Positions 3,234-43,021 of a DNA stretch of 64,000 bases are shown piece after piece (the stretch's first letter is position 1; each line of letters opens with the position of its first letter). Below the pieces are notes generated by a model. The model was given only the letters and a program-made list of their open reading frames with translations. It was not told the DNA's origin and made no database searches. The position numbers were made by a program, and so were the translations under genes. The DNA is from Candidatus Bathyarchaeota archaeon (GTDB lineage: Archaea; Thermoproteota; CALKCG01; B24). The stretch spans positions 1 to 64,000 of the forward strand of contig JAGTQM010000006.1 in assembly GCA_018396755.1 (NCBI GenBank), given 5' to 3'.

Positions 3234-3302
3234 GGCGTTAAACGCCTCCTCAAGCATCTTTTACCTTACCCCATGTATTAGCTTTGTTGGAGGTGTACTT
3301 CT

Positions 3303-4784: not shown

Positions 4785-4798
4785 GTTGAGTGATTGAA

Positions 4799-26124: not shown

Positions 26125-26290
26125 TAACTGATGTTAAATTTGTAAAACCGATATAAAGGTAGCTTTCCCACGTTTTTGCTCTACATGAAAATGTTAACGT
26201 TGACTGTCTTAGAATCTCCCATAGAATGGACGGTTGTTTAAACTCTGTTAAAAACACTTATTGAAGTTTTTAACAAACTATTATATTAGA

Positions 26291-26992
26291 ATGAGGGCAC
26301 CCGTAGTAGTTGTCAAAGGCTTTTCAATAGCCTCCGTCTGGGGACGTGCGGTTCTGGAAGTTTGGAGACACGGTGTTGAGGTTCCAACGGAGTACGGTGA
26401 GAAGGCTAAAGAAGCAACCCTTCTAATGGTCGTTGAGGATCCGTTTAAAGAGCCTAGAGTTCATAGGGGAGACGTCTTAGCAGTAGTTGGGCTGAAGGAT
26501 TACATGGAGGAAGTTTTAAACGGTTCCAAGGATAAGCTTGTTGAAGAAGGTAAGCTTCCCTACACTTACCATGAGAGGCTTTTCAAATACGGTGCCGACG
26601 GTTTCAACCAGATGGACTACGTCATTAGGAAACTTAAAAGCACACCTTATACACGCAGAGCTCAAGCCATAACTTGGATACCGGTTAAAGATGTGAATTT
26701 AGATTCTCCGCCCTGTCTTCAAAGGCTATGGTTTAAGGTATACAGCGGTAAACTTGTCTTGCAGAGTGAATGGAGAAGCCGCGACTTATTTAGAGCAGCT
26801 CACATGAATATGCTGGCTTTAACAGAGCTTATGAAAACCATAGCACTAAACGTAGGCGTTGAACTAGGGTCCTACGTCGATTTTTCAAACTCAGCCCACA
26901 TATATGAGAAATCATACGACAATGTGAAAAGCTTTCTTAACGTATGTGAGAAACGCGGCTTCAACAAATCTGTAGAAGCATACGTAATCTAA
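26291..26992 (+). CDS. thyA: Thymidylate synthase (ThyA family, archaeal)
   Basis: The product of about 233 residues has the catalytic cysteine in SPPCLQRLWFKV and downstream SEWRSRDLFRAAHMNMLAL, corresponding to the RSxD and nucleotide-binding region of ThyA. YVDFSNSAHIYEK matches the conserved dUMP-binding HxY segment. It methylates dUMP using a reduced folate or archaeal pterin. ATG 26291 is preferred; the frame opens at TTG 26261, which would add ten residues. Length is short relative to bacterial ThyA but normal for archaeal forms. Confidence 0.85.
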   Translation: MRAPVVVVKGFSIASVWGRAVLEVWRHGVEVPTEYGEKAKEATLLMVVEDPFKEPRVHRGDVLAVVGLKDYMEEVLNGSKDKLVEEGKLPYTYHERLFKYGADGFNQMDYVIRKLKSTPYTRRAQAITWIPVKDVNLDSPPCLQRLWFKVYSGKLVLQSEWRSRDLFRAAHMNMLALTELMKTIALNVGVELGSYVDFSNSAHIYEKSYDNVKSFLNVCEKRGFNKSVEAYVI

Positions 26993-27138
26993 ATAAAAAC
27001 CTGCCTCCCCATTTACTGGAACCCTACTGTAGTTACTAAAATACTTCAAGCTAAATTCATGCTTGTACGAAAACCTTATTAGAATCTTGTGTAAAAATTT
27101 ACATATCATTGAAAAATATTACATAGTAGTGTTTACTT

Positions 27139-27891
27139 ATGAGACTTTCAACGAAGAACGTGGCTTTAACGGCTGTTTTTGCAGCTTTATACTATGTACT
27201 TTCACTTATCACTCCTTTCATTCCTGCCGTCGCAATCCCTGAGATAAAGATAAGTTTGGAGGCTCTCATAGCATCTATATACGGGCTTATCTTGGGACCT
27301 TATCTAGGTGCTCTAGCTGCGTTCGTAGGAGCGTTGGTTTCTTGGTCGCTTCCCCCAGAGAGTATGAGTCCCTATGGGATGCCGTTTCTATTGTCGCCGC
27401 CTTTAAATGCCCTACTAACTGGTTTAATATTCTATAGACGGTGGAGGATCGGCTTTTCTATCTACGCTCTCTTGATAATAGCATTCCTATTTACGCCTCC
27501 TGTTCAACCGATCCATGAGAACTTCTACGTGGCTGTAGCCGTTTTATGGGATAAGCTCATAGCATTACTGTTAATACTGCCTTGTGTGAAATTCGCTAAA
27601 CGGCTATCCAACTTAAAGTCTTTACCCTTCTTCTACTTCCTACTAGCATTCATCGGGAATCAGGTTGACAACATGTGGGGCTGCTTAGCATTTGCCACGC
27701 CGCTGGTCTACGGTGGGATTTTCGGATTACCAGTAGAAACAGTCCGCTTTCTATTTATAGTCAGCCCCCTTGTATACCCAGCTATTAGAATACTACAAGC
27801 GATTATTGCGTCGGTCATCGCCACGCCTTTAATGAAGGCAGTAGCTGGTACGCCATGGGTCTTTCAAGAGAAGAACATACTATCCCCCTAG
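27139..27891 (+). CDS. ECF transporter substrate-binding (S) component
   Basis: The 250-residue membrane protein has about six hydrophobic helices. It opens with MRLSTKNVALTAVFAALYYV, the Ala-rich first helix (AxxxA) with which S components contact the T subunit, followed by the glycine-rich YGLILGPYLGALAAFVGALV. Such proteins bind a vitamin, metal or nucleobase and work with shared EcfA/EcfT proteins, which are not in this window. The substrate cannot be inferred. The next gene begins 22 bases downstream. Confidence 0.75.
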   Translation: MRLSTKNVALTAVFAALYYVLSLITPFIPAVAIPEIKISLEALIASIYGLILGPYLGALAAFVGALVSWSLPPESMSPYGMPFLLSPPLNALLTGLIFYRRWRIGFSIYALLIIAFLFTPPVQPIHENFYVAVAVLWDKLIALLLILPCVKFAKRLSNLKSLPFFYFLLAFIGNQVDNMWGCLAFATPLVYGGIFGLPVETVRFLFIVSPLVYPAIRILQAIIASVIATPLMKAVAGTPWVFQEKNILSP

Positions 27892-27912
27892 TCTGGTAGG
27901 TATTGCATATAC

Positions 27913-28359
27913 GTGATGATAAACGTTAAAATATCTTCACTTACATCATTTAAAGCTGAGTGTATGGTTGTTAAATCTAATGTTGAGTTGAAGGGTTTCA
28001 AAAGCTCTGAGAAGTGTAGAGCTTTAGTTGACACTGGAGCCGCTATGACAGTTATTGACAAAAGCTTGGCCGAAGTATTGGGCGTTATGTATACGGGTAG
28101 GGAAAGATTGCTTACAAGTGCTACTGGGCATAAGCTTAAAGGTGAGATAGCTATGGTCAGAGAGATGATTGTGGAAGATGAAATACTGGATTATGAGAAA
28201 GTGCTTGTAGTAGAATTTAACGAAGAGGTTAAAAAGACCCTGAACAGTCTTAACGTCCATCCCTTAATAATTGTAGGAATTACAACGGTAGAGTTAGCAA
28301 GTCTAATTCCAGACATAACAACAGGCACGCTAAAGAAGGCTAACGCATTCCTCTTCTAA
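27913..28359 (+). CDS. Retropepsin-like aspartic protease
   Basis: The 148-residue protein has one aspartyl protease signature ALVDTGAAMTVID near residue 35 and a later hydrophobic Gly segment PLIIVGITTVEL near residue 114. It would therefore act as a dimer, like single-domain retropepsins. There is no signal peptide. Homologs of this type are scattered in archaea and bacteria and their substrates are unknown. It closely follows the ECF S-component gene and may be co-transcribed. Confidence 0.78.
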   Translation: MMINVKISSLTSFKAECMVVKSNVELKGFKSSEKCRALVDTGAAMTVIDKSLAEVLGVMYTGRERLLTSATGHKLKGEIAMVREMIVEDEILDYEKVLVVEFNEEVKKTLNSLNVHPLIIVGITTVELASLIPDITTGTLKKANAFLF

Positions 28360-28413
28360 AAACGGCATTCCTAACACTTAACGATGTTTCTATGTGAAGT
28401 AGACTACCTATAG

Positions 28414-28815
28414 TTAAACGGGTCGTATTTCTCTACTAGACTTAACTTTTAGTACCCCGCCGATCTTTCCTGTAAGCCTCTCATCATCAGTAATTAGTAT
28501 ACAGCTATTTTTCACGGCAACAGTTACATATGAAGCATCGTAAATTGTTAGCCCATATTTACACGATGTTTCAAACACTTCCCTCTCCAACTCCTCTACC
28601 GACATCTTATCTATTACATTAAAAATTCTCTGGAAAATCGTAATGAATTCTATGGCTGTATCCTTATCTATCTTTCTAAGTTGAAAATGCTCCTTCCAAA
28701 TAGCATTTAAAGCTTCATACAAGGCTAAATCAAGGGTTACAGCATCATACAGCTTAAATAGCTCTCCTCTCTTGACAATATTCACTAAGGCGCTAGCGTC
28801 TAGAAGATACTTCAA
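28414..28815 (-). CDS. vapC: VapC-type PIN-domain toxin
   Basis: The 133-residue PIN domain has the first acidic residue in LLDASALVNIV, a second in LALYEALNAIW, and YDASYVTVAV with TDDERL near the C-terminus. Together these give the quartet of acidic residues of the ribonuclease active site. It overlaps the antitoxin gene by 4 bases in the usual vapBC order. The predicted product cleaves RNA when freed from VapB. Confidence 0.9.
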   Translation of the reverse strand: MKYLLDASALVNIVKRGELFKLYDAVTLDLALYEALNAIWKEHFQLRKIDKDTAIEFITIFQRIFNVIDKMSVEELEREVFETSCKYGLTIYDASYVTVAVKNSCILITDDERLTGKIGGVLKVKSSREIRPV

Positions 28816-29039
28816 CGCTCCCGATCCTCTCTAATCAATTCAGCAATCTCTTCATCACTTATATCTTTAAGCTTTAAGCTAAGCCTTTTAGCGTCGCTCT
28901 CCAACTTCTCAAGAAGAACTCTCTTAACCTCCTCCTCCAAAGCCCTCCTTATAACAGGACCTGGTTTTATCCCCAGAGTATCCATCAGCTCCTTAATCTT
29001 CTTAGGGACTTTTGCAGCTACAACAGTGTATCCATTCAT
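28812..29039 (-). CDS. vapB: VapB-type antitoxin
   Basis: The 75-residue protein has a ribbon-helix-helix-like N-terminus (TVVAAKVPKKIKELMDTLGI) and a long charged helix that would wrap the toxin (EEEVKRVLLEKLESDAKRL). It overlaps vapC by 4 bases. The palindromes at 29056-29075 immediately upstream are candidates for autoregulatory binding. Confidence 0.85.
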   Translation of the reverse strand: MNGYTVVAAKVPKKIKELMDTLGIKPGPVIRRALEEEVKRVLLEKLESDAKRLSLKLKDISDEEIAELIREDRER

Positions 29040-29055
29040 AGAACCTCTATATCTT

Positions 29056-29075
29056 CCTTAATTAAGGTTTACCTT
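29056..29075. promoter_or_regulatory. Overlapping palindromes upstream of vapB
   Basis: CCTTAATTAAGG (29056-29067) is a perfect palindrome, and it overlaps AAGGTTTACCTT (29064-29075) with arms AAGGT/ACCTT. GTTTACCT recurs just beyond. The cluster sits 17-36 bases upstream of the vapB start, where an autoregulated antitoxin would bind. Confidence 0.45.
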
Positions 29076-29178
29076 AATAAAGTTTACCTATAATCATATC
29101 AACTTTATATTGATAACTCCATGATGACCTTAATAGCTTAATTTTTTACATTATAGTTAACTCTTTTACTATTTTCCG

Positions 29179-29465
29179 TTAGAGTGTTGTCTTCCAGGCT
29201 TGGGAGGCTGTAACATGCTCATGTGTAAGTCTAAACAGAGGTTTACCATCTCCATACTCCACTAATATTGATTCGTCGTCTGCCTCCATTTCGTAAGAGC
29301 TTTTTTCCTAATTGTTAATATTCCTTCGAATGTTAGCGTTAAGCTTGGGCTTTCAATCTTTAGTAATATGAATTTGTCTAGAACTTCCCTTTCAACTCTT
29401 GTATGTTTAATTTCTTCGATAACAATCTCTATACGACATTTCCCTTTGTTAACAGATGAACTCAT
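29179..29465 (-). pseudogene. Frameshifted small gene of unknown function
   Basis: The minus strand opens with ATG 29465 (MSSSVNKGKCRIEIVIEEI ... SPSLTLTFEGILTI). The coding character then appears to move to another frame (EKSSYEMEADDESILVEYGD then GKPLFRLTHEHV), ending at the stop 29179-29181. Taken together they look like one protein of about 95 residues broken near 29310. I do not recognise the family. If the first frame is read alone it gives a 67-residue product ending at 29262. Confidence 0.35.
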
Positions 29466-29629
29466 CTGAAAACTATTTAGATGCGGCTGGAAAGCCATAG
29501 AATCCGCCTTTAGGAGATTAGAGCTTTCAATTCTCCATTTAGATGCAACATGTATAGGTAGGGGGAGGGGGTAGGTTTAAGATAATTGCTCGGAAGCAAA
29601 TCGTCTTAATAGAGAAGAAGCTTAACACA

Positions 29630-29824
29630 ATGCTATTTCTATCAGCCTTCGAGATGCAGAAGCTGAGGGTTAAGCTTATCACAAACTTTGAACAGCTTTC
29701 CAACTCCACGGTTTCGATAACTTTCTGTAAAATTTGTTGGAATGAAATAAGCTTATTTTTAGATCTGAAAACGAGTTGTTCTCTATCTTTAAGGAAAGAT
29801 GAATTAGAGAGGCTTGAAGTTTAA
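29630..29824 (+). CDS. Hypothetical small protein, start uncertain
   Basis: From ATG 29630 this encodes 64 residues (MLFLSAFEMQKLRVKLITN and onward). The frame continues open upstream to 29558, behind a very G-rich stretch (GGGGGAGGGGG at 29561-29571), with ATA 29582 or ATT 29585 as possible non-standard starts giving IIARKQIVLIEKKLN. No domain is recognised. It may be a real short gene or a fragment in a decaying patch. Confidence 0.3.
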   Translation: MLFLSAFEMQKLRVKLITNFEQLSNSTVSITFCKICWNEISLFLDLKTSCSLSLRKDELERLEV

Positions 29825-29905
29825 TGAGATGTTACAAAGTAAAGTCTGCATGTCGAAACAAAGACTTTAAAGCAGAGTCTATGCTTAAATTTACTAGGTC
29901 TTTAG

Positions 29906-30247
29906 ATGAGAGCGGATATAGTTTTTAAAGCTGTTCTTACGAGTAAGGTTCTTACACAGGATCCGGTTGAAGGTGAATGTGTCAAATTGGATTTTTCAGA
30001 GTATAAGCCTATTCCTCCTCCAATAATAACTTCAACTGACGAATCTGGGATCGTTAGAGAAGTTGCTCCGATAATTCAGCAGGTTATTCAAAGTATGCCT
30101 TTCACTCAGAAGGGTATGGTTAAAACGCCTAGGTTTACGCTTTGGCTGACTAAGGAAGAGTGGAATTCGCTTGAGTCTAAGCCTGATATAGGTGATGAAG
30201 TTACAGTTGTAATAAGGCGTGGGGCGTTTTCAATAAACCTCAAGTAG
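29906..30247 (+). CDS. Hypothetical archaeal protein, possibly arcadin-1-like
   Basis: The 113-residue protein starts MRADIVFKAVLTSKVLTQD, has a proline-rich KPIPPPIITS segment and ends with RFTLWLTKEEWNSLESKPDI followed by GDEVTVVI. The shape of the last part (LTxEEW, then a beta strand with GDEV) resembles arcadin-1, the small protein encoded with the archaeal actin crenactin. I recall this only by pattern, and no crenactin gene is nearby. It may have a structural or nucleic-acid-related role. Its end overlaps the convergent gene by 8 bases. Confidence 0.55.
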   Translation: MRADIVFKAVLTSKVLTQDPVEGECVKLDFSEYKPIPPPIITSTDESGIVREVAPIIQQVIQSMPFTQKGMVKTPRFTLWLTKEEWNSLESKPDIGDEVTVVIRRGAFSINLK

Positions 30248-31553
30248 ACGTTTCTATTAGCTCTAGCACGTTTCCAATGGTGTTGTCGAAGCATACGTAT
30301 ACTCTATCTTGCTTCTTAATCCAGCCGTTAGGCTGAAGCTCATCTTCACATTTGTTTAATTCTGCCACACTCTCAGAAACTTTTGCTTCATCCCATCCGC
30401 TTCTATATTGGCCTTTAGCCAGTTGAACTCTCCCAACTTTAAAGTCTACTCTAAAACTCACCGTTAAGTCTTTACATGGGAACACATTCTCTACAAGTAC
30501 TCTCAAAAACCCGCTTCTCTTATCCACGTGGATATCCAGCGTCTTCGAAGCAGCGTAATATGATGCTATTTCACTAAGCTTCATCCACACTATTCTACCT
30601 TTAAGTAGACTATTCAATCTTCTAAGGGCTTCACCCATAACTTCTAAACCGTGTTCGGCACCGTTAGACCATAGACTATTCCAATGCGTATGGAAGACTA
30701 CGTAGCTTCCAGAGTTTAACAGTTCTACTAGCCTCCCCCTTCTACCATCGCTGGTTATGTAGTAGTCTGCATGTTTTAATGCTATATCTCTACACCATGC
30801 TCTCCTATTTTCAGGCGTCATAGTTTCCCATATCACGTCGTCGTTGCCGCTTACAATGCTTACCACGGCTTCCCCATCGTATTTATCAAGGTAGGCAAGC
30901 CTCGGATAGACTACCTGCGATCTTGGATCGACCTTAAGAAAATACCATGCCAGTTTAACCCCGTAAACCCTCTTAACGGCATTTAAAACAGCCTTCGCAT
31001 ACTTAGACTCTACATCTATGCCGAAGGCTCCCGGGGAGGTTACGCCGTTTGTTTCAAAGCCTACGTTTTTCAAAGTTTCCAAGGCTTTAGCTATGTAGTC
31101 TGCCAAGGTTTCGACTGTTTGACTGCTGGCCCAAGTTTGCTCATGCATCGGTAGGAGTTTACCCGTTTTAAGGTCTATGGCGTTCGTATGGGTTAGCATT
31201 TCAGGTGTTATATCGAATAGGGGGGCTACGTTTTCTCTAACTCTTTTAATCCACCATTCCACCCCCTCTTTAGGATATCCTTCGATTCCGCTGTCTATGT
31301 ATCCTTGGCCTGCTGGGTTTGGAATAACGCTAAACTTACCCTTGACATTCTGCTCTTTTACGAGTTTTATGAAGCTTTCTAGGAATTCGTTCGGTATTGT
31401 TTTAAACTCTTCATAGTACTCTGGATAGTTTGGGTTTAGAAATCTTCTAAGGTAGTATAGGTGGTTTACATACGGCGTCGGGTCGTCTACTATAAGCGCT
31501 ATAGGCGTCTTCAACCTCGGCATTTCAATTTTGAAATCCAGCATAAGTGTCAT
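30240..31553 (-). CDS. Polysaccharide deacetylase (NodB)-like carbohydrate esterase
   Basis: The 437-residue protein begins with PIALIVDDPTPYVNHLYY near residue 18. The Asp pair is where NodB enzymes keep catalytic and metal-binding aspartates, and MLTHTNAID near residue 121 and VVFHTHWNSLW near residue 306 supply candidate histidine ligands. The C-terminal part is beta-rich. No signal peptide is visible. It overlaps the amidohydrolase gene by 4 bases and faces away from an FGGY kinase and two transport-like membrane proteins, so it probably processes a sugar or sugar acid derivative. Confidence 0.55.
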   Translation of the reverse strand: MTLMLDFKIEMPRLKTPIALIVDDPTPYVNHLYYLRRFLNPNYPEYYEEFKTIPNEFLESFIKLVKEQNVKGKFSVIPNPAGQGYIDSGIEGYPKEGVEWWIKRVRENVAPLFDITPEMLTHTNAIDLKTGKLLPMHEQTWASSQTVETLADYIAKALETLKNVGFETNGVTSPGAFGIDVESKYAKAVLNAVKRVYGVKLAWYFLKVDPRSQVVYPRLAYLDKYDGEAVVSIVSGNDDVIWETMTPENRRAWCRDIALKHADYYITSDGRRGRLVELLNSGSYVVFHTHWNSLWSNGAEHGLEVMGEALRRLNSLLKGRIVWMKLSEIASYYAASKTLDIHVDKRSGFLRVLVENVFPCKDLTVSFRVDFKVGRVQLAKGQYRSGWDEAKVSESVAELNKCEDELQPNGWIKKQDRVYVCFDNTIGNVLELIETST

Positions 31554-32317
31554 CTCTTAAGGAGGAATTCAGCATTCCTATGGAAAATCTCCTCCATCTG
31601 CTCTCCAGTGGTTCCAAGCTGAGGTAGAACAGTTAACCAGAAGTGTATGTATTTTTGAAACTCTTCTGGCTGTGAATCTGAACCGAAGAGAAGCTTAGAG
31701 GTTTTAACGTCGAAGAATAGACGGCTTCTAAGGGTTAATGCAATGTAAAACGTATGCCCCCCTGAAACGTCGAAGTATACATTTGGGTTGTGGAATGATA
31801 CTACTGTAGCCTCTTCACACCATGGATGGCCAAGGTGGGCTCCAATTATCTTAAGGTTTGGAAAGCTTCTAGCTATAGTCTCCAAGTAAACTGGACGCAT
31901 ATTTCTAGATGAAACTCTTCTAATCTTGTCGGCTTCACTTCTGGCCACTATGCCTGTGTGGAATAGTGTAATCATGCCATATTGTTCTGCGCGTTCATAG
32001 TATGGGAAGTATTCCTCCACGTCATAGGGCTTTGGAGGACCTATAAACTTGAGCCCGGTAAATTCTCTAGCATATAAGTTGTCTACTGTTTGAACCGGTT
32101 CTCTTCCCAGGTCTACGTATCCAAATCCTTCGATTAAACTTGGATATTCTCTAAACGCTTTCTCAACGGCGTCATTACCCATTCTTCCAAAACCCTCCGG
32201 AAGACCGCACATAAAGCTTTTCACAATTCCGGCTTTCTCACATGCTTCTACAAACTTTCTAAGATTTCCATCAGCTGGAGGGTGGACATGAGCATCTACA
32301 ACCTTCAGAATAACCAC
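31550..32317 (-). CDS. Amidohydrolase-family (TIM-barrel) metal-dependent hydrolase
   Basis: The 255-residue product has VVDAHVHPPAD at the N-terminus (HxH metal ligands), TLFHTGI near residue 117, IIGAHLGHPWCEEA near residue 157 and LLFGSDSQPEE near residue 209. This is the order of metal ligands in the amidohydrolase-2 family, which hydrolyses or decarboxylates small ring or acid substrates. It is the first gene of a two-gene operon with the NodB-like gene and diverges from the sugar kinase gene at 32445. Confidence 0.8.
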   Translation of the reverse strand: MVILKVVDAHVHPPADGNLRKFVEACEKAGIVKSFMCGLPEGFGRMGNDAVEKAFREYPSLIEGFGYVDLGREPVQTVDNLYAREFTGLKFIGPPKPYDVEEYFPYYERAEQYGMITLFHTGIVARSEADKIRRVSSRNMRPVYLETIARSFPNLKIIGAHLGHPWCEEATVVSFHNPNVYFDVSGGHTFYIALTLRSRLFFDVKTSKLLFGSDSQPEEFQKYIHFWLTVLPQLGTTGEQMEEIFHRNAEFLLKR

Positions 32318-32444
32318 CAGAGCTTACTACTCGTTTTTGGGACTTAAGCTTTAAGAATATGATTTTTACAATCCTCTACTATCTTTTTATTTTATTGTTT
32401 TATATCTGAAAACTTAAGTTTCCAGCAATAGTAGTCTCCTTTGT

Positions 32445-33935
32445 ATGAAGGCTGATAGACTTGTGGTTGTTGTAGACTGTGGTTCAACAAACGTTAGAGC
32501 TGTTGTTGTAGATTCAAACGGTGTTTTTACAGCTCAGTCTTCCGTGTCGAATAAGCCTTCTCCTCAACCCGGTAGGGCCGGCTGGCTCATATGGGATATG
32601 GATGAATTGTGGAGTCGAATACGTGTAGTTCTTAGAAGCGTACTGTCCAAGGTTGGTAGAGTTAATGCTGTGATCGTTACCACTTGGGGAGCTGATGGCG
32701 CTCCAGTTAAGAGAAATGGTGAGTTGACTTACCCGCCCATATGTTGGCAATGCCCTAGGACTATTCAGATCGCTGAGCGATTGCCATTGATTATGGATCC
32801 TTGGGAGATATACAGGATAACAGGCTATCAGATAATATCCTTCAATACGCTTTTGAAGCTTATCTGGCTTAGGGAGAATGAACCTAAGGCTTTGGATGAA
32901 GCCTATACTTGGCTTATGATGCCTAGTTTAATAACACATAGGCTTACAGACGTATTCCACATAGAACCTACAAGCGCCTCAACTATGATGGCTATGGATT
33001 TGGCTAAGAGAGACTGGTCTCCGGAGATTCTTAAACTAGCGGATTTAGACGTAGGTTTCTTCCCAGACTGGTCTGAACCCGGTGATATAGTAGGCTATGT
33101 GACGGCTAAAGCCTCTGAGAAAACCGGTTTAGCTGAGGGTACTCCTGTTATCGCAGGTGGTCATGATACTCAATTTGCGATACTTGGTGCTGGCGTTAAA
33201 CACAGTGAGGCTGTATTGTCAAGTGGGACTTGGGAAATATTAGCTATTAGAAGCGGCGTTTTCAATCCTTCTAAAGAGGGGTTTGAATGGGGTGTCATCA
33301 CAGAGGCCGACGTTGAACCCGGCCTATGGAACCCACAGCTTCTTATGATAGCTTCAGCCGTCTTAGAGTGGGTTAGAGAAAGATTCTACCCTGAGCTTTC
33401 AGAAGGCTATTACGAACAATTGGTTAGAGACGCCTCTAGTGTACTGCCCGGTTCAGGAGGGTTATTGTTCATACCTAGCTTTGTTAAAGACTCCGGTCCA
33501 ACTAGGAGGTTTAAAACCGAGGGTACGCTGCTCGGTTTAACGCTTGGAGCTTCTAGAGCCCACGTATATCGAGCTGCATTGGAGGGTTTAAGCTACCAGC
33601 TTAAGCTCGCTGTAAACGCTTTAATCAAATCTACAGGCTTTCAAATAGATGCTGTTAGAGTTGTAGGCGGGGGATCTAAGAACAAACTTTGGAATCAGTT
33701 GAGAGCAGACGTAACAGGTATGCCTATATACGTAAACACCATAAGGGAGGCAACAGTATTCGGAGCCGCTTTAACGGCTTTCAAAGGAATAGGCGTCTAC
33801 AGCAGCTTTGAAGAAGCCCTATCAACAGTACGCGTAAGTGAAACGTACATGTCAAGCCAAAACAGAGAAATATACATAAATCTATATGAACAGTACATTA
33901 AAGCCTTAAACACTCTGAAAAACTACTACAAGTAG
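32445..33935 (+). CDS. FGGY-family carbohydrate kinase
   Basis: The 496-residue protein has VVVDCGSTNVRAVVVD at the start, the sugar-domain segment AGGHDTQFAILGAGV near residue 241, SSGTWEILAIRSG and the C-terminal RVVGGGSKNKLWNQLRADV. SSGTWE and CWQC-type segments resemble fuculokinase and rhamnulokinase more than xylulokinase. The substrate could be a ketose such as fuculose or rhamnulose, but this is inference. It leads toward two DUF6785-type membrane genes, so it may phosphorylate what they import. Confidence 0.85.
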   Translation: MKADRLVVVVDCGSTNVRAVVVDSNGVFTAQSSVSNKPSPQPGRAGWLIWDMDELWSRIRVVLRSVLSKVGRVNAVIVTTWGADGAPVKRNGELTYPPICWQCPRTIQIAERLPLIMDPWEIYRITGYQIISFNTLLKLIWLRENEPKALDEAYTWLMMPSLITHRLTDVFHIEPTSASTMMAMDLAKRDWSPEILKLADLDVGFFPDWSEPGDIVGYVTAKASEKTGLAEGTPVIAGGHDTQFAILGAGVKHSEAVLSSGTWEILAIRSGVFNPSKEGFEWGVITEADVEPGLWNPQLLMIASAVLEWVRERFYPELSEGYYEQLVRDASSVLPGSGGLLFIPSFVKDSGPTRRFKTEGTLLGLTLGASRAHVYRAALEGLSYQLKLAVNALIKSTGFQIDAVRVVGGGSKNKLWNQLRADVTGMPIYVNTIREATVFGAALTAFKGIGVYSSFEEALSTVRVSETYMSSQNREIYINLYEQYIKALNTLKNYYK

Positions 33936-34019
33936 AGTCTATTCGGAAGGAACAATCTTAACTTACATGGAAAATTTAACACGAAAAGCGAGAAAGAGAG
34001 CAAGTAAACGGTAAAAACC

Positions 34020-34025
34020 TATATA
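34020..34025 (+). promoter_or_regulatory. TATA element of the first DUF6785 gene
   Basis: TATATA is centred about 27 bases before ATG 34050. No ribosome-binding site precedes that ATG, so the gene is probably leaderless and has its own promoter separate from the kinase gene. Confidence 0.45.
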
Positions 34026-34049
34026 CTTCTTTGGCAAAAAGTTTCTCAG

Positions 34050-36098
34050 ATGAGAGAAATGTCAAAGGAGATAGTTGAAGAGAAGATTCCATGGAATTTC
34101 TTAATACCGTTTATAATTGTTTTAGGAGTATTAACTATAGCTATAAATCCTTTAAACGCATTTGGTACTTGGCAGAATCCCCCAGGCTGGTCTGCAACTA
34201 TGGGTACTGTGATCATATGCTACTCTGCTTTAACAGCTCTCCCATTCATCAGCTTTTGGTTTATTAGCTTTCTTGGAAAATTCAGCTTTTTCAGGAAGAG
34301 GATAAATCCGCCCATTTTAACTTGGTTGTACACTACGACACTATGCCTGTCTTTCTACCTTGGATATCCCCACTCCACAAATCCGTGCACTAACTACGGT
34401 GTTTTTATAGGCAATAGAATTCTATCACCTCCAGAGGAGACTGTACGGCTTATCCCATGGTTTATGGCTCCACCAGTAGACGTCGCTAGACAATCACTTT
34501 ACGGTGGTGTCCCAATACCATGGGCTGACCTGATGCCTATGATAATCTTCTGGTGGATATTTTCAGCAGTTTACGGAGTTTTAATGGTTTCAATTGCGAC
34601 TCTGTTTAGAAAACACTGGATAGATGTTGAAAAAGTTCCATTTCCACATGCCTTAGCCGCTCACGAGCTTTTAGTGAGAGTCATACCTGAGAGGAAAGCC
34701 CCTGTTAAAGGGACGCCTTTCCTAATAGGCATTATACTAGGGATAGTCACATTGATTCCTACGATGTTCATTGGGCTTTTCCCATGGTTCCCAGATGTAT
34801 ATGGATGGAGGACGGGTAACTGCGGCTTCGGGTCGCATTTCGTCCAACCAGGTGAGCCGCTTGCATCTATAGTCGCCATGGGTAGAATAGGTAAAGAGCC
34901 TCTAGGCGTAGCTATAGCCTACTTTGCACCTCTACACATACTTTTCAACATGTGGTTCTGGTGGCTTATCATAGTTGTACTTGCTCAAGTAGCTTATGTG
35001 ATGGGATACTACACAGGTATTCTAGATTTGGCTGGTTGTGGTAGAATATGGTGTGGTGACATTAGTATAACATATGGAGAGCCGTTTAAGTGGACTGCTG
35101 TGATGGTTGGCGGTATGTGGAGTTTAGCAATATTCTTACTAATCTTGAGTAGGAGATACATTGCTGACACTATTAGAGCGGCGTTTGGAAAGATGGGCTC
35201 ATCTTCTAGGTTGGAGTTTGAGAAGGACGAGCCCATGAGCTATAGAAGCACCTACACGCTTCTGATAGGTGCTTTCGTAGCGGCTTTAGCAATACTGCTA
35301 ATATGCGGTATAAGCCCTGAATCTGCAATATTAACTGTAGTAAATATGATAGTACTGTGGTTTGCCTCTATGAGGCTTCTCGGACTTGCGGGAATATACT
35401 GGCGTAAAACGGATAAAGGCTATGCGTTACATAGACTATTCCTATGGCCTAGAGCTCCTGAGGTAATGGATAGAAACTACGTGTTATCAGCGTGGTTTAA
35501 CACGTTTATGACGGATGCTCCTGATCAAGGCGAAGTTATGGGTGGGAACTTCTTAGTAGCCTTCCTAGCATATAGAATGGCGGGGCTCACTGGAGTTAGC
35601 TCTAAAAGCGTCTTTAAAATACTGGTAGTATCCATAATAATATACGCATTAACAACGCCGCTAGTATGGTTGCCGATAGTGTACAGTTACGGTTCTACTA
35701 GACTTCAAGGGACTTGGGGTATGGTCGGCTGTAATGCTCTGCTTCAGAGATCAGCAGCCCCTGAAACGTGGAACAGCTGCCCAGGTACAGAGCCTTGGAT
35801 CCCCCACTTCACTGCGGGATTTATTACCGTGGGGCTTTTAAGTTTGCTGCATGCAAGATACGTATGGTTTCCGTTTGAACCTGTAGGTTTCATTCTAAGC
35901 ATAGCTTGCTTTGAGTGGGGATTCTGGAGCTTTGCTCTCATAGCATGGATACTTAAAATGATAACGCTCAGAGTTGGAGGCAGCAAGCTTTACGAGGAAT
36001 TCGGCGCACCCCTAGCCGGCGGTTATATAGCAGGTTACATGCTGACATTAATACCAGGGATAATACTGTACAGAATAAGATTCTTCATACCTTTCTAA
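34050..36098 (+). CDS. Large polytopic membrane protein, DUF6785/DUF6784 type (transporter-like)
   Basis: This 682-residue protein has roughly 14-16 hydrophobic helices, starting with IPWNFLIPFIIVLGVLTIAI. It carries conserved soluble elements: RKHWIDVEKVPFPHALAAHE near residue 195, AYVMGYYTGILDLAGCGRIW near residue 314 and TLRVGGSKLYEEFGAPLAGG at the C-terminus. The overall shape resembles oligopeptide-type transporters. The second copy downstream shares these landmarks, so the two are paralogs. Substrate is unknown; context with the sugar kinase and hydrolases suggests a carbohydrate or its derivative. Confidence 0.7.
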   Translation: MREMSKEIVEEKIPWNFLIPFIIVLGVLTIAINPLNAFGTWQNPPGWSATMGTVIICYSALTALPFISFWFISFLGKFSFFRKRINPPILTWLYTTTLCLSFYLGYPHSTNPCTNYGVFIGNRILSPPEETVRLIPWFMAPPVDVARQSLYGGVPIPWADLMPMIIFWWIFSAVYGVLMVSIATLFRKHWIDVEKVPFPHALAAHELLVRVIPERKAPVKGTPFLIGIILGIVTLIPTMFIGLFPWFPDVYGWRTGNCGFGSHFVQPGEPLASIVAMGRIGKEPLGVAIAYFAPLHILFNMWFWWLIIVVLAQVAYVMGYYTGILDLAGCGRIWCGDISITYGEPFKWTAVMVGGMWSLAIFLLILSRRYIADTIRAAFGKMGSSSRLEFEKDEPMSYRSTYTLLIGAFVAALAILLICGISPESAILTVVNMIVLWFASMRLLGLAGIYWRKTDKGYALHRLFLWPRAPEVMDRNYVLSAWFNTFMTDAPDQGEVMGGNFLVAFLAYRMAGLTGVSSKSVFKILVVSIIIYALTTPLVWLPIVYSYGSTRLQGTWGMVGCNALLQRSAAPETWNSCPGTEPWIPHFTAGFITVGLLSLLHARYVWFPFEPVGFILSIACFEWGFWSFALIAWILKMITLRVGGSKLYEEFGAPLAGGYIAGYMLTLIPGIILYRIRFFIPF

Positions 36099-36529
36099 AC
36101 TCTCCACTTTTATTTTTTAATGTTTTATGGCTTAACTATTTATTGTTTGGAGTTTCTCATTTGGTTTCATGTTCAATCTTTAAACACCGGTACAGCAGGT
36201 ACTGCATGACAAAACAATACCATACGTAGAGAGCGCATGGCTAAAGCATACATATGCAACATGCTAATAAACCTATAAAAGCAAAACAATACCAAACCCT
36301 TCATCGCCAGCTAACAAACCCCGTTTCCTTAAGACGGCGTTAAACTGCTCTAAACGCACCAAGTCACCTTTAATATAGAAAGGCCGCATTACTATTAACT
36401 TACACAGGTCTCCAAATCAAATAGAATCCACTGTTAAAATTAGCTTTTGTTCAATTTTAAACTTCAAATAATTCTCTTTAAAAAAAGACTTATATACATC
36501 TTCAAAGAAATAATCCAACTGATGGGAAA
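36099..36529. other. Intergenic region between the two membrane genes
   Basis: No gene is supported. A 13-base string, CAAAACAATACCA, occurs twice (about 36209 and 36283). Towards the right, TTATATAC at about 36489-36496 is a likely TATA element for the second membrane gene, whose ATG is at 36530. Confidence 0.4.
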
Positions 36530-38572
36530 ATGAATAATGAATCTGAGGAATTTAGGATTAAGCCACCTCTTCTAATAGCATTGCTAGTGTTAACAGTATT
36601 ATTATCTTTCATAGGCACTGTGGAGATTGCTTTAAACGGTTCAGTAGGCGGCGCCTTCATGTGCCGCTATGCATGGGGCACCGTTTCTAAGACGATGGGT
36701 ATACCGATAATGAGCCTTCTAGTTATATTGCTAGCATATCCATTTAAGCTTCTAAAAGTTAAGATATCAACCTCGACGCTTGTTCTACTCTATGCAGTTG
36801 GTGCAGCGGTCGGTATGTATGGTATTGGACACTATGAAACCTTCGCATCTTTCCCCGTTGGCTTCAGCAGGACTTTACTGCAAACGCAACCTGAGTTTCT
36901 ACCTGTAGCTGAAAGCTGGTGGTGGATGCCTCCTATTGAAGTTGTAAGACGCATAACTGTTGGCGGTGCTACTACAGACTGGGGTGCATGGAGTGGAAGC
37001 ATAGTATTCTGGTCTCTATACTTCTTGGTTTTCTACTTGTTCGGTTCAAGCGTGATGCTTCTGTTCAGACGTAGATGGCTTGACGTAGAGAAGGTCCCAT
37101 TTCCATACGTAATAGCGACGCATGAAATAATCACTGCTTTCTCCGGAGAATCTAAGCCGGAAAGAACTAAAAGCCTGTTTGTCATAGGCTTTCTAATAGC
37201 GCTAGTCTATGAGTTTCAGATTATGATGACGTATCTCTTCCCATGGTGGCCCGATGTCTTAGCTTTTAGGGGAACACCTGTAGAAGATACTAGTCCGCAG
37301 GGCTGCGTATGCCTATTTTCGAATCATCCTATAGCGAGCGCCATAGTATGGTTTCCAGGATATTCTAAAAACATTTTACCGTTTTTCATATACTATCTGG
37401 CTCCTCTAGAAGTCCTCTTTACAGTATGGGTTTTCCAGATAATTATAATGGTATTGGCTCAAATAGCTTACACAATGGGCTACTACACAGGCGTGTTTAA
37501 TATGGGTAGTGCCTGCAGAGTTAGAGCATGGGGCGGATTTGAAATATCACCATTATACGGCCCGCCATACTACTGGATGTGGATGACGATGATAGGTGGA
37601 ACGACTGCAGTGACTGTTATGATGATTTTCCATGCTAGAGGCTATATTGCTGAAACGATAAGACTTGCTATGCGTGGAGGGAAATCTCCTGAAGAAGCAC
37701 ATGAGCCATTCACATATAGGCAGATCTACATGTTCATAGTAGCATCAGCAATAATACTGTTAGCGTTCTGCTTCTCAGCAGGCTTAAGCATAGGAACAGC
37801 ACTATCAGTTTTAATAGTAGGAGCATTCATAAACGTGGTTGCAGCTGCATACGTCCTAGGGCTTAGCGGATGCGGATACATACATAACAGAGGCTACTGG
37901 CCAAGCTGGCCTCTAAGACTGATATGGTTCCAGAATCGCCCTGAAACCTACACGACAGATTGGGTTATGACCCATACATTCCTAGCAACAGGAGTAAACC
38001 ATGTAACCATGGGGTTACAGACTGGAGCGTATCTTACAATTCAGAACCTTAAGATGGGAGGCTTAGCTAGAATCAACCTTAGAGACATATTCGTACTGAC
38101 TACGATTGCAAGCGTGATAGCGATATTCGTCGCAATGATAACAAGGGTTTGGATAGTTAACCTCTTAGGCGTTGGCCGTGTCCCAATATGGGGGGAATGC
38201 TCTGTAACAGACTGGTGTGATAACGACTTCGGCGATTATGATCGTGCTCCTGCAAGTGGGTTTCAGCTGACAGCTGGCATTGTGGGCTTTATAGTAACTA
38301 TGGTGCTTTTCCTCATAAGAGCTAGATTCCTATGGTGGCCAATACACCCAGTAGGCTTTATAATAGCTACAAGCATAGCTCCCAACCACATGAAGGAATG
38401 GACCACTTTCCTAGCTGCTTGGATAGCTAAATGGCTCACTCTCAGAGTAGGAGGAAGTAAGGCGTATGAAAAGTATGCTGTGCCCTTTGTAAGTGGCGGA
38501 GTAGCTGGATACGCAGTATCAAACCTAATAGCTTACCTAATAGGAACGGTAAGATTCTTCATACCGTTTTAA
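36530..38572 (+). CDS. Second DUF6785/DUF6784-type membrane protein (paralog)
   Basis: The 680-residue polytopic protein parallels the previous one: RRRWLDVEKVPFPYVIATHE near residue 183, AQIAYTMGYYTGVFNMGSAC near residue 308 and TLRVGGSKAYEKYAVPFVSG near the C-terminus. Both are of equal length and same strand, so a tandem duplication with divergence is likely. They might form a heteromeric transporter or handle two related substrates. It has its own TATA element. Confidence 0.7.
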   Translation: MNNESEEFRIKPPLLIALLVLTVLLSFIGTVEIALNGSVGGAFMCRYAWGTVSKTMGIPIMSLLVILLAYPFKLLKVKISTSTLVLLYAVGAAVGMYGIGHYETFASFPVGFSRTLLQTQPEFLPVAESWWWMPPIEVVRRITVGGATTDWGAWSGSIVFWSLYFLVFYLFGSSVMLLFRRRWLDVEKVPFPYVIATHEIITAFSGESKPERTKSLFVIGFLIALVYEFQIMMTYLFPWWPDVLAFRGTPVEDTSPQGCVCLFSNHPIASAIVWFPGYSKNILPFFIYYLAPLEVLFTVWVFQIIIMVLAQIAYTMGYYTGVFNMGSACRVRAWGGFEISPLYGPPYYWMWMTMIGGTTAVTVMMIFHARGYIAETIRLAMRGGKSPEEAHEPFTYRQIYMFIVASAIILLAFCFSAGLSIGTALSVLIVGAFINVVAAAYVLGLSGCGYIHNRGYWPSWPLRLIWFQNRPETYTTDWVMTHTFLATGVNHVTMGLQTGAYLTIQNLKMGGLARINLRDIFVLTTIASVIAIFVAMITRVWIVNLLGVGRVPIWGECSVTDWCDNDFGDYDRAPASGFQLTAGIVGFIVTMVLFLIRARFLWWPIHPVGFIIATSIAPNHMKEWTTFLAAWIAKWLTLRVGGSKAYEKYAVPFVSGGVAGYAVSNLIAYLIGTVRFFIPF

Positions 38573-38804
38573 CACATCTGGAGACCCTCAATGTCTTTTT
38601 TTAAATTTCAAAGTGTCAAACTATGTATGTGCATCGGTAACTATCCGGTCTACTGCTTTGAAAAGGGCATTTGAGCTATAAAAATCATAAATGTTTCAAT
38701 CGGCCGGTTTAGGCGTTTGATGATATTTCAGGAGAACGCTGTCTGCAAGGATTTTGAGTAACGGTTTTAAGGGTTTATGTTGTGAAAGTTATGTGGAGAT
38801 CTGT

Positions 38805-39170
38805 TTGAGGAAGATAAGTCCTAGGGAAGCTAGGAGGCTTATGAACCGTATGGGTGTTAAAATGGAGGCTCTCGACGGTGTTGAAAGGGTCGTCATATAC
38901 ATGGGTGGGAAGGAGCTTTTAATCGAAGAGCCCAGTGTAATGGTTATGGAGGTTAGCGGTCAGAAGGTCTTCCAAATATCTGGTAAGGTTTCTGAGAGAA
39001 CCGTTGAGAAAGCTGAAGAAGTCTTAGAGAAGCCTGAGATATCTGAAGACGATGTAATGCTTCTAGCTTCTCAAACAGGTGTAACAGTTGAAGAGGCTAG
39101 AAAGGCTTTGGAAGAATCCGGCGGGAATCTCGCGGGTGCGCTTATGATTCTTAGAAGCCGTAGAGGCTGA
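38805..39170 (+). CDS. nac: Nascent polypeptide-associated complex protein
   Basis: The product of about 121 residues has an NAC domain (KISPREARRLMNRMGVKMEA near the start, KELLIEEPSVMVMEV) and a C-terminal UBA domain (DVMLLASQTGVTVEEARKAL). This is the archaeal alpha-NAC form, which binds nascent chains at the ribosome as a homodimer. TTG 38805 is chosen because GGAG at 38795-38798 lies at normal spacing; GTG 38793 and TTG 38754 are upstream alternatives that add residues not typical of the family. It is followed 8 bases later by the phosphatase gene. Confidence 0.92.
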   Translation: MRKISPREARRLMNRMGVKMEALDGVERVVIYMGGKELLIEEPSVMVMEVSGQKVFQISGKVSERTVEKAEEVLEKPEISEDDVMLLASQTGVTVEEARKALEESGGNLAGALMILRSRRG

Positions 39171-39178
39171 ATAGTCTA

Positions 39179-39985
39179 ATGGATCGTCTTGAAGTGGTAC
39201 GTGAGGTTTTAGAGGAATCGAAGTCTAAAATAGTTGAAGCTCTTAAAAATCCGGAAGTCTTCAAACCGGTCTCCGGGAGGACTTTGCTCATTGATAAACT
39301 CGCTGAGAAGATAGTTGTAGATTTGCTTTCAAAGAAAATCGGTGGTTTCATACTGATGTCTGAAGAAGCTGGTGTAGTTAAAGTTCACGGAGGAGGGAGT
39401 CTAATAGCGATATTAGATCCCATAGACGGTTCTACGAATGCTTCAAGAGGATTCCCACTATACTCAACATCTTTAGCCTTAGCTGAAGACTACAGTTTAA
39501 ACGACGTAGTAGCCGGAGGCGTCATAGATTTCTCTAGAGAAGCTATTTACTACGCCGCTAAAGGGGTTGGAGCCTTTCTAGACGGTAAACGGGTGACTGT
39601 TTCAAAGGTGAAAAGTCTCAGGGAGAGTGTTATAGCGTTAGATGTGAGCGCTAAAGGTAGAGTCTTCAAATACCTACCCTTGCTATCGCCGATTGTAGAG
39701 AGAGCGTACAGTATAAGGTCTTTAGGCTCTAATGCGCTACACCTATGCATGGTTGCATCTGGGATTTTTGACGCCTTCATAGACTTGAGAGGGGTCTTGA
39801 GAGCGATAGATGCTTCAGCTGGAGTGCTAGTGGTTAGAGAGGCTGGAGGAGTTGTAACCGATGGATTTGGAGTTGAATTAAACTTCAAACTGACAGTTGA
39901 CGCGAGGATATCCCTAGTAGCAACATCCACTGTAGAGCTTGCATCTGAAATAGTTAAAGTCTTAGGGTTTAAACCGAAAAGTTAA
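39179..39985 (+). CDS. Inositol monophosphatase-family phosphatase (IMPase/FBPase type)
   Basis: The 268-residue protein has the metal-binding motifs MSEEAGV near residue 59, [15 protein letters not shown] near residue 79 and [17 protein letters not shown] near residue 208. Archaeal members often hydrolyse both inositol-1-phosphate and fructose-1,6-bisphosphate with Mg. The length is normal. It is embedded in a string of translation genes and is probably transcribed with NAC and S27e. Confidence 0.9.
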
Positions 39986-40025
39986 AAGCAGTAGAATGCT
40001 CCTCTACGTAGAGGAGGAAGATTTC

Positions 40026-40223
40026 TTGAAGAAGAAAAAAGAGCTTATCCCACAGCCTAGAAGCGCCTTCATTAGAGTTAAATGTCCATCATGTGGTGAT
40101 GAGCAGATTGTCTTCAGCCATCCGGCGACGCAGGTGAAATGTCACATATGTGGTGAAGCCTTAGTTGAACCTACTGGCGGTAAAGGTAGATTTAACTGTG
40201 AAATTCTGGAGGTTCTAGGTTGA
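40026..40223 (+). CDS. rps27e: Ribosomal protein S27e
   Basis: The product of about 65 residues has [20 protein letters not shown] with a second zinc pair [16 protein letters not shown], the S27e zinc finger. TTG 40026 is chosen because GAGGAGG lies just upstream and the resulting N-terminus ([13 protein letters not shown]) matches the family; ATG 39996 would add ten acidic residues. It overlaps the aIF2 alpha gene by 4 bases, a common archaeal arrangement. Confidence 0.93.
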
Positions 40224-41005
40224 GTGAGGAGGAGTGGCCTGAAGTAAATGAACTTGTAATAGGTACAGTTGAAACAATAACAGAATATGGAGCCTATATT
40301 AGACTGGATGAGTATGGCGGTAAAAGAGGATTCATACATGTATCTGAAATATCTTCAAGCTGGGTTAGAAACATCAGAGAACATATAAAAGAAGATATGA
40401 AGCTCGTCTTGAGGGTTCTTAGAGTAAACCCGTCTAAAAACCAGGTAGACCTATCTCTTAGAAGGGTTTCAGATAAGGAGAAGGAGGAGGAACTATACTA
40501 TTGGAAGAGAAGGGTTAAAGGGAGAAGCATGCTGAAGCTTGTAGCGGATAAAATCGGCAAACCGTACGAGGAGCTCTACGCCAACTACGGTAGAAGACTT
40601 GAAGCACACTTCGGCGACCTCTACGAGGTCTTCAACAGACTTTCCACAAGAGGACCGAAGCTTCTAACAGCCATTGGAATCCCCGAGGATTTGGCGAAAG
40701 TCTTCCACGAGATTGCCTCTGAGAAAATTAAACAGAAACCGGTTAAAGTCCGCGGAATAGTTGAAATAACCACTTACAAGCCTAATGGAATAGAAGATAT
40801 TAAGGAGGCTTTTCTGAAAGCTGAGAGGCTGAGTGATGAAGAAGTTTCAGTTGAAGCGTATTCTATTGGCGCACCCAGATACGTCGTGGAAGTTTCAGCT
40901 AGAAACTATAAGAAAGCTTCAAGCACTCTCAGAGAAGCCTTTGAAGTGATTGAGAAAACCATGAAGAGTAGCGGCGGCCTCATCTCATTTAAGGAGGAGC
41001 ACTGA
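40220..41005 (+). CDS. eif2a: Translation initiation factor 2 subunit alpha
   Basis: The 261-residue protein starts with an S1 RNA-binding domain ([39 protein letters not shown]), then a helical domain and an alpha-beta C-terminal domain ([20 protein letters not shown]). This is the standard aIF2 alpha layout and length. It joins aIF2 beta and gamma to deliver initiator tRNA. It overlaps rps27e by 4 bases and nop10 by one base. Confidence 0.95.
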
Positions 41006-41166
41006 TGGTTTGGCTTCTAAGGAAATGTGTAAAATGTTCATCTTATACTCTTAGGCAGGATACTTGCCCATACTGTGGAGGAGAAGTTAAAGTACCGCAT
41101 CCAGCAAAATTTTCACTCCATGATAAGTTTGAAGTTTACAGGATAAAGGCTAGGCGATCTTCTTGA
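41005..41166 (+). CDS. nop10: H/ACA ribonucleoprotein protein Nop10
   Basis: A 53-residue protein begins [20 protein letters not shown] and continues with CPYCGGEVKVPHPAKFS, then DKFEVYRIKARR. The four cysteines form the Nop10 zinc ribbon, and the Pro/His/Pro/Phe segment contacts Cbf5 in the box H/ACA pseudouridylation complex. Its start overlaps the aIF2 alpha stop (ATGA) and its stop overlaps the next TTG start. This position after aIF2 alpha is conserved in archaea. Confidence 0.95.
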   Translation: MVWLLRKCVKCSSYTLRQDTCPYCGGEVKVPHPAKFSLHDKFEVYRIKARRSS

Positions 41167-41936
41167 AGAGTGTTGAAATCAAAGAGTTTAAGCAAATACG
41201 TCCTAGAAAACCTGTACTAGTGGCTGGTTTTCCAGGCCTAGGCTACATCGGTAAACTAGCTGTTACTCACATGGTTAACGTTTTAAAAGCTGAGAAAGTC
41301 GCAGAGCTTTACTCGCCATACTTCCCATACCATGTGTTGTGTGACGAGAAGGGTATCGTCAGGCTTTTAAGGCTTGAAATATACTACTGGCGTAGCCCGG
41401 AGGAAAACGGTAGAGACCTTCTACTTTTAACTGGAGATGCTCAACCTCAAAGCGTTGAAGGTGGCTATATAATAGTCTCCGAGATTTTAAACTACTTTAA
41501 AGGGGAAAATGTTGACACGGTTATAGCTTTAGGAGGCTATCAGAGCTTCTCTAAAAACCCAACCCCAGTGGTTGTAGGTGCTTCAACAAACCGTGAAATG
41601 CTTGAACAGCTTAAAAATGCAGGTGCTAGGGTAGGAGGATGGGGTAATCCAGTAGTTGGATTAGCTGGAATATTAGTGGGTTTGGCTGAATTTTACGGTT
41701 TAAACGGTGTATGTCTCCTCGGAGAAACGTCGGGCTACGTGGTGGATGTTAAATCCACCGGAGAGGTTCTTAGAGTTTTAAGTAAGCTTCTCAATGTGGA
41801 AATAACCTTGGAAGGTCTTAAAAGAGACATACTTAAAGAGATAGGTGAAGCTATTTCAGAAGTTGAAGCTGAAATGAAAACTCTTGAGAAGATGATAGAT
41901 AGAATGAAGGGGGAGAGTATAACGTATATAAGCTAG
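41163..41936 (+). CDS. PAC2-family protein (proteasome assembly chaperone-like)
   Basis: The 257-residue product has VLVAGFPGLGYIGKLAVTHM near the start, LLLTGDAQPQSVEGGYIIVS near residue 88 and DTVIALGGYQ near residue 118, typical of archaeal PAC2 proteins. It ends in a helical segment. These proteins are conserved beside nop10 and aIF2 alpha and are thought to act in proteasome assembly, though this is not shown for most archaea. The TTG start overlaps the nop10 stop by 4 bases. Confidence 0.9.
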   Translation: MKSVEIKEFKQIRPRKPVLVAGFPGLGYIGKLAVTHMVNVLKAEKVAELYSPYFPYHVLCDEKGIVRLLRLEIYYWRSPEENGRDLLLLTGDAQPQSVEGGYIIVSEILNYFKGENVDTVIALGGYQSFSKNPTPVVVGASTNREMLEQLKNAGARVGGWGNPVVGLAGILVGLAEFYGLNGVCLLGETSGYVVDVKSTGEVLRVLSKLLNVEITLEGLKRDILKEIGEAISEVEAEMKTLEKMIDRMKGESITYIS

Positions 41937-43021
41937 CCGGGGGAGCCTTTAAACCTCCTAGTCTCCTCAGCTGTAATGTTCAAGTATAAATCTCCATATT
42001 CTAAACTCGGCTCTATTTCACTGCCTTCATGCCACTCGTTCCATGAGCATATCAACACCCAGTCTGCATTAGATTCGTAAACGGCTTTCCAAGTCTCCCT
42101 GTAAGTATCGCCCCCTCTCCGAGGATAGGCGAGTCCAGGCTGTCTTATACGTGTATCATCATAGCCTGGTAGTGTTGTAGCTGAAAATATAACTCCATAC
42201 TTATCGGCCACTATTCTAGCGTTAACGTATACGTCTTTTAAGCTTCCACCTCCATGTAGTATTCCAACTGGGTTGTACGTGTGTACTCCATCAAATATTT
42301 CAGCCGCCTGTTCGTCGAAACTATCGGCTATAAGTAAGACTTTAAATCCATCGTAGCGTATCCTTCTAGTCACGTAATCCCAATCTCTATAGCCTAACTG
42401 GTGTAAGGCTCTCGAATATATGAAGACAATAGGATACCCTTGAACTTTGAGAAAAGCCTCCCGATCTCCGTAGTCTCTAAGAATCCGTTCAATATCTTTA
42501 ACGGCTTCATCTCTACCATCGTGGACAATTTCATAGTACACGGTCAACTTTATAGAAGTATTCACTTCCTCGGCGACTTTCAACATTAAACGGAAAGCCT
42601 TATCTTCAAATGTTTCAAAACCCCACCAGCTAACTATGAAACCATCTATGCCGGCTTCTTCAGCTAGTTTGAAATGCCAAGCTATGATACGTTCGTCTTT
42701 AGAATCGTATGGTCCATTAACAGGGTAATCGGTTGCACCTAAGTCTCTCTTATTCTCGACGAACATGTCGGGGTTATGCCCCCCTTCATCCCAATGTCTC
42801 CAAAATCCCGTAGGTCCTTCAGGCATACCATACCATGGATAGTAGAATGCAAGTACGAGCTTTGAAACCTTCTCAAAGTTTAACGTCGGTTTTTTAACGT
42901 TTCTAAGCTCAGGATGAAGTATGAACGGGTCTCCTAGAAACATAATAGTCGTCGTTAAAATTATACTCGATACGGCTATAAGTATAACTAGTAGAATTCT
43001 CCGTTTAAACAAAACACTCAC
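41933..43021 (-). CDS. Membrane-anchored GH99-like glycoside hydrolase
   Basis: The 362-residue protein has an N-terminal membrane anchor or signal (RILLVILIAVSSIILTTTIM). The barrel starts LVLAFYYPWYGMPEG, continues with GIDGFIVSWWGFE near residue 126 and ends with LICSWNEWHEGSEIEPS near residue 328. This combination is that of the GH99-like family (endo-alpha-mannosidase-type fold) and the late Glu-rich loop carries catalytic residues. It would act on mannan-like chains or glycans outside the cell. It is convergent with the PAC2 gene and stands as a single gene. Confidence 0.82.
   Translation of the reverse strand: MSVLFKRRILLVILIAVSSIILTTTIMFLGDPFILHPELRNVKKPTLNFEKVSKLVLAFYYPWYGMPEGPTGFWRHWDEGGHNPDMFVENKRDLGATDYPVNGPYDSKDERIIAWHFKLAEEAGIDGFIVSWWGFETFEDKAFRLMLKVAEEVNTSIKLTVYYEIVHDGRDEAVKDIERILRDYGDREAFLKVQGYPIVFIYSRALHQLGYRDWDYVTRRIRYDGFKVLLIADSFDEQAAEIFDGVHTYNPVGILHGGGSLKDVYVNARIVADKYGVIFSATTLPGYDDTRIRQPGLAYPRRGGDTYRETWKAVYESNADWVLICSWNEWHEGSEIEPSLEYGDLYLNITAEETRRFKGSPG

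Follow-up and report, generated by a model that had tools for sequence, protein, structure and literature searches.

The barley transporter YS1 (HvYS1), of the YS/YSL branch of the OPT superfamily, is a proton-coupled symporter for which an elevator-like mechanism has been proposed, with proton-site aspartates at residues 446, 490, and 494 (PMC9691689). We analysed a stretch of 64,000 nucleotides (the window; contig JAGTQM010000006.1, Candidatus Bathyarchaeota archaeon) in which two large membrane proteins, here called A and B, are encoded beside an FGGY kinase and an oppositely oriented pair of putative hydrolase genes. Both membrane proteins carried DUF6785 (PF20581) and DUF6784 (PF20580), each above the Pfam cut-offs. 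The initial annotation had described a membrane family with no assigned substrate. Pfam records no function for either domain, and in the library searched no paper naming DUF6785 or DUF6784 was found. Our comparison of a predicted structure with solved ones placed B near YS1, and we moderately favour a reading in which the locus serves OPT-type uptake of a glycan-derived compound, followed by its hydrolytic unmasking and phosphorylation.

Fold and history of the DUF6785 family

A sequence search of the PDB with the DUF6785 profile gave no meaningful match, and the comparison was therefore made at the level of fold. Protein B was modelled with AlphaFold2 from 45 sequences (pLDDT 91.4, pTM 0.92), and a Foldseek search of this model against the PDB recovered barley YS1 in its apo and ligand-bound structures (7wsr/7wst; E 3.3e-8, probability 1.00, TM 0.61/0.68). 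Nothing besides HvYS1 fell below E 0.001 in the PDB, the next match lying at E 0.08, and identity between protein B and HvYS1 across the structural alignment was 14%. The 28 DUF6785 proteins of the source genome that were compared could be aligned over their full length and shared many invariant residues, an R..W.DVEK.PFP motif among them. The Pfam OPT model (PF03169) matched 4 of the 28 (best E 7e-9), the best matches covering most of its length. One paralogue (L039:188-2188) exceeded the DUF6785, DUF6784, and OPT cut-offs simultaneously, and another, adjoining a DUF6785 gene (L016:4515-6413), exceeded that of OPT only. Proteins A and B themselves were below the OPT cut-off (B: E 0.17). A tetraspanin match on protein A (E 0.005) was sub-threshold and was disregarded. 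Because the model of protein B matched YS1 alone and some paralogues passed the OPT cut-off, the DUF6785 and DUF6784 pair belongs, as judged from the predicted fold, to the OPT superfamily as a divergent branch.

The source genome (1.98 Mb in 74 contigs, 89% complete) is a B24-related member of the Bathyarchaeia, in the same family as Bathyarchaeota archaeon B24 (G003) and the same genus as the metagenome-assembled genome S1_Bin_METABAT__59_1 (G001). PF20581 matched 37 times in it, fragments and broken copies included, and the family occupied roughly 3.5% of the genome. For comparison, a report on rice gives sixteen OPT genes (PMC5520842), against about 36 DUF6785 matches here. PF20581 was absent from 14 of 14 control genomes. 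A survey of the phylum found the family in 48 of 397 genomes, with the source genome at the top (39 first-look candidates).

The initial annotation had presented A and B as tandem paralogues. They are paralogues, but they were only 30% identical and belonged to different old subfamilies; in a tree of 77 proteins they fell into separate clades, which together with the low identity ruled out a recent tandem duplication. Relatives from CALKCG, and from B24 or Brockarchaeota, were present in each clade, and the diversity of the family is therefore old. A recent burst of copies was likewise ruled out, since most copies of the source genome had their closest relatives in other genomes. Within the source genome the closest relative of A was L030 (70%), and that of B was L025 (74%).

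Layout of the locus and its enzymes

The five open reading frames and the divergent arrangement reported by the initial annotation were recovered, with the hydrolase pair on the minus strand and the kinase and two membrane genes on the plus strand. The Amidohydro_2 protein, the kinase, and both membrane proteins scored above Pfam cut-offs. The features were as follows.

30240-31553, minus strand: 437-residue protein (open reading frame), cytoplasmic, possibly a NodB-like (alpha/beta barrel) metal-dependent hydrolase
31550-32317, minus strand: Amidohydro_2 TIM-barrel hydrolase (Pfam PF04909, 6.9e-20), with metal motifs HxH / H / H / D intact
32318-32444, no strand: divergent intergenic region; some 40 nt ahead of the kinase start stands a TATA-like tttatatc (by eye)
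32445-33935, plus strand: FGGY carbohydrate kinase, L-fuculokinase-like (Pfam FGGY_N/FGGY_C; TIGR02628)
34050-36098, plus strand: protein A, DUF6785+DUF6784, predicted divergent OPT-type transporter (Pfam; homology to modelled protein B; hydropathy)
36530-38572, plus strand: protein B, DUF6785+DUF6784, predicted divergent OPT-type transporter (Pfam; AlphaFold2 model; Foldseek match to HvYS1)

The two hydrolase genes overlapped by 4 bp. By eye, the membrane genes lay 432 bp apart, a TATA-like ttatata stood about 40 nt upstream of the protein B gene, suggesting that it has its own promoter, and a similar box apparently preceded the gene of protein A. Because of this gap and of the boxes before the kinase and apparently before A and B, the five genes are not obviously one operon. 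No RNA family was matched in window positions 26000-42000.

The 437-residue protein had no match in Pfam, NCBIfam, or the PDB, and its five homologues gave no Pfam match even at E up to 10, PF01522 included. Across the six homologues, D23 D24, H122, T172-S173-P174, and T289-H290-W291 were invariant. When its profile was compared by hhalign with NodB-type proteins from related archaea, a weak match was obtained (58% probability over about 215 columns), and nine control profiles gave 10% or less. An AlphaFold2 model from a two-sequence alignment was too poor to use (pLDDT 39), and its barrel-like Foldseek matches (KDO8P synthase, a methyltransferase, and a putative deacetylase) were set aside, none being below E 0.001. 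The NodB-like label that the protein had initially received thus kept the weak profile match and the conserved Asp pair and His, but no family match, and is reasonable but unproven. For the Amidohydro_2 protein the closest PDB structure was 3irs, an uncharacterised protein (1.7e-7).

The kinase matched FGGY_N (1e-56) and FGGY_C (1e-32) above the Pfam cut-offs. Against the L-fuculokinase model TIGR02628 it scored 410.4 bits over nearly its full length, with XylB next at 212; as the curated cut-off is 470.9, the kinase is called L-fuculokinase-like, by far its best family on sequence, and receives no equivalog assignment. Four L-fucose-isomerase-C proteins were found in the source genome. None of the three enzymes had a hydrophobic or transmembrane segment, and they are therefore probably intracellular and work on compounds that have been imported.

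Close to the locus, window positions 41933-43021 encode a GH99-like glycosidase whose N-terminus has a hydrophobic segment (by eye). Window positions 27913-28359 encode a small retropepsin-like aspartyl protease (gag-asp / Asp_protease_2). At 1656-6434, a glycerol kinase above its NCBIfam cut-off is followed by glycerol-3-phosphate dehydrogenase subunit-like genes; in Brockarchaeota (L063/L164) a DUF6785 gene has a similar glycerol kinase / glycerol-3-phosphate dehydrogenase-like set close to it.

Neighbours in related genomes and genome-wide

In the same-genus genome G001 the hydrolase pair and the kinase were found in the same order at 91-94% identity, and the arrangement is therefore not chance. 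The match extended about eight codons into protein A, after which the contig diverged and ended. At this point (L115:1-230) the protein A orthologue gives way to unrelated, visibly GC-richer sequence, an assembly chimera or an insertion. In the same-family genomes G002 and G003, orthologues of the hydrolase pair (73%) stood beside GH42, GH20, an M55 D-aminopeptidase, and two more Amidohydro_2 genes. The kinase orthologue of G003 (73%) lay near GH123 and the same housekeeping NAC/IMPase/aIF2-alpha-like genes. The window locus thus appears to have been brought together at genus level from units that each have glycan-related contexts elsewhere.

We then determined which genes accompany the DUF6785 family across the source genome, using a binomial test whose null was the genome fraction within the given distance of a DUF6785 gene; all p-values assume random genomic placement and ignore possible joint duplication. 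The 2 Mb genome held 32 matches to URO-D (uroporphyrinogen decarboxylase-like), many adjoining DUF6785 (loci L012, L019, L027, L033, L037, and L038). When merged into 31 places, 15 lay within 5 kb of a DUF6785 gene (p 6.7e-5) and 10 within 2 kb (p 2.8e-4). GH4 was enriched as well, with 7/10 within 5 kb (p 3.4e-4). Other neighbours included MTTB, GH29, GH95, GH38, GH130/32, DeoC aldolase, AFOR, an acetyl-xylan-esterase-like protein, and peptidases of M14 and M28; MTTB was present in the L019 operon, and an MTTB-like gene (by eye) adjoined a DUF6785 gene in Brockarchaeota L058. One operon combined an M28 peptidase-FtsX protein (1562-1564 residues), a divergent OPT-like protein, and a DUF6785 protein of the B type (L025:706-9499, L048:3217-12040, L049:3249-12040), possibly linking peptide cleavage with uptake.

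The survey of FGGY kinases around DUF6785 that the initial annotation had proposed gave no enrichment (3/8 within 5 kb, p 0.15). Among the coordinates listed for 17 DUF6785-bearing genomes only one further close pair was present, in the same genus (L050/L161), where GH4, an L-fucose-isomerase-C protein, and a DeoC aldolase made up a clear sugar pathway. An association of FGGY with DUF6785 as a rule was rejected on these counts. The general pairing of the family was with methyltransferase-like and glycosidase genes, and sometimes peptidases; the grouping with FGGY was genus-specific.

Proposed function and comparison with known systems

Building on the OPT fold, the gene families, and the neighbour enrichment, all obtained computationally, we infer transport, its direction, proton coupling, substrate, and the order of reactions. 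Proteins A and B would be OPT-fold secondary transporters, each belonging to a different old subfamily of the divergent archaeal branch. On the model of barley YS1, they would most likely take up a small polar solute together with protons, moving it in the manner of an elevator. The likeliest substrate would be a sugar or glycoside in modified form (N-acetylated, lactonised, or methylated), which the Amidohydro_2 and 437-residue pair would unmask by hydrolysis in the cytoplasm before the FucK-like FGGY kinase phosphorylates it. It is only the position of the genes that suggests the enzymes act on what A and B import. The initial annotation had proposed import, deacylation or ring opening, and phosphorylation of a sugar. 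Uptake followed by cytoplasmic processing remained plausible, given the transporter fold, the enzymes free of transmembrane segments, and the GH42, GH20, GH123, and M55 contexts. The kinase was not supported as a pointer to the substrate of the membrane family, in view of the missing FGGY enrichment, the G003 orthologue without DUF6785, and genome-wide partners that were URO-D, GH4, and one M28 operon. That annotation had also named consistently non-sugar contexts as evidence against itself; the contexts found were mixed, with many glycan-related genes.

Several observations weigh against uptake and processing of a glycan-derived compound. The random-placement assumption behind the enrichment values and the lack of FGGY enrichment are among them, as is the weak NodB membership of the 437-residue protein. 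The nearest relatives of protein B occurred in the M28 peptidase-FtsX context in three genomes, with no sugar genes. In G003 no DUF6785 gene lay between the kinase orthologue and the housekeeping genes, so that the link between transporter and enzymes is lineage-specific, and the TATA-like boxes suggest separate transcription of the kinase, A, and B. Characterised OPT proteins transport peptides or metal chelates and are not known to carry sugars.

Part of this evidence would fit A and B being OPT transporters whose cargo is oligopeptides, glycopeptides, or metal-peptide chelates, in line with characterised OPT families, with coincidental sugar neighbours. The OPT fold of protein B, the M28 peptidase/FtsX operon kept in three genomes, the M14 and M55-type peptidases near some copies, and the G003 kinase without a transporter all speak for it; we nevertheless consider it unlikely in view of the GH4 and URO-D enrichment and the many glycosidase neighbours, copies with peptidase neighbours being fewer than those with glycan neighbours as seen, with no genome-wide peptidase count made. 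The same URO-D places, 10 of the 31 within 2 kb, raise the alternative that methylated small molecules (methoxylated or N-methyl compounds) are what the family transports and that neighbouring URO-D-like and MTTB methyltransferases demethylate them, the window keeping only the transporter pair beside sugar genes. The MTTB genes of L019 and L058 agree with this, as does the methylotrophy with MttB proposed for Brockarchaeota (PMC8065059). However, none of the window's open reading frames was recognised as URO-D or MTTB, and fewer than half of the DUF6785 copies had a URO-D within 5 kb, making this explanation improbable for the locus as well. Finally, hydrolase pair, kinase, and transporters may be three independent modules, accidental neighbours with no joint action. 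They stand apart in G002 and G003, carry separate TATA-like boxes, and include transporters that are old divergent paralogues, but the order of pair, kinase, and first protein A codons was kept in the same genus, and every module has glycan-related contexts elsewhere; we regard an accidental grouping as rather doubtful.

Beyond the preferred reading of the locus, we tentatively suggest, with somewhat less than even confidence, that Bathyarchaeia and Brockarchaeota saw a radiation of this OPT-fold family, whose dozens of old subfamilies would import glycan- or methyl-bearing solutes together with intracellular GH4 glycosidases and URO-D/MTTB-type methyltransferases. This would be uptake of neither the ABC nor the MFS type, with a substrate class not known for OPT proteins. 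The more than thirty relatives in the source genome, which stand unusually often beside sugar-cleaving and methyl-transfer enzymes, hint at an unrecognised nutrient-uptake system. If the gene context points to the right substrates, OPT transporters bring glycan or methylated compounds into uncultured Bathyarchaeia; the range of substrates known for OPT would then be wider, and there would be candidate carbon sources to try in cultivation. For a large membrane family, the label "function unknown" is replaced by a concrete fold and mechanism class.

Each part of the locus can be set against a known system. The Amidohydro_2 protein has the family match and the full set of HxH, H, H, and D ligands, although the nearest solved structure, 3irs, is itself uncharacterised. 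The 437-residue protein resembles NodB and polysaccharide deacetylases in its weak profile match and its conserved Asp pair and His residues, whereas none of the six homologues matched PF01522. L-fuculokinase is the best model of the kinase by a large margin, yet its cut-off was missed. Proteins A and B differ from HvYS1 in being archaeal, in gene context, in an identity of 14%, and in lying below the OPT cut-off themselves, but they resemble the YS/YSL branch in the predicted fold of B, in a length of about 600-680 residues, in their many helices, and in having paralogues that pass the OPT cut-off.

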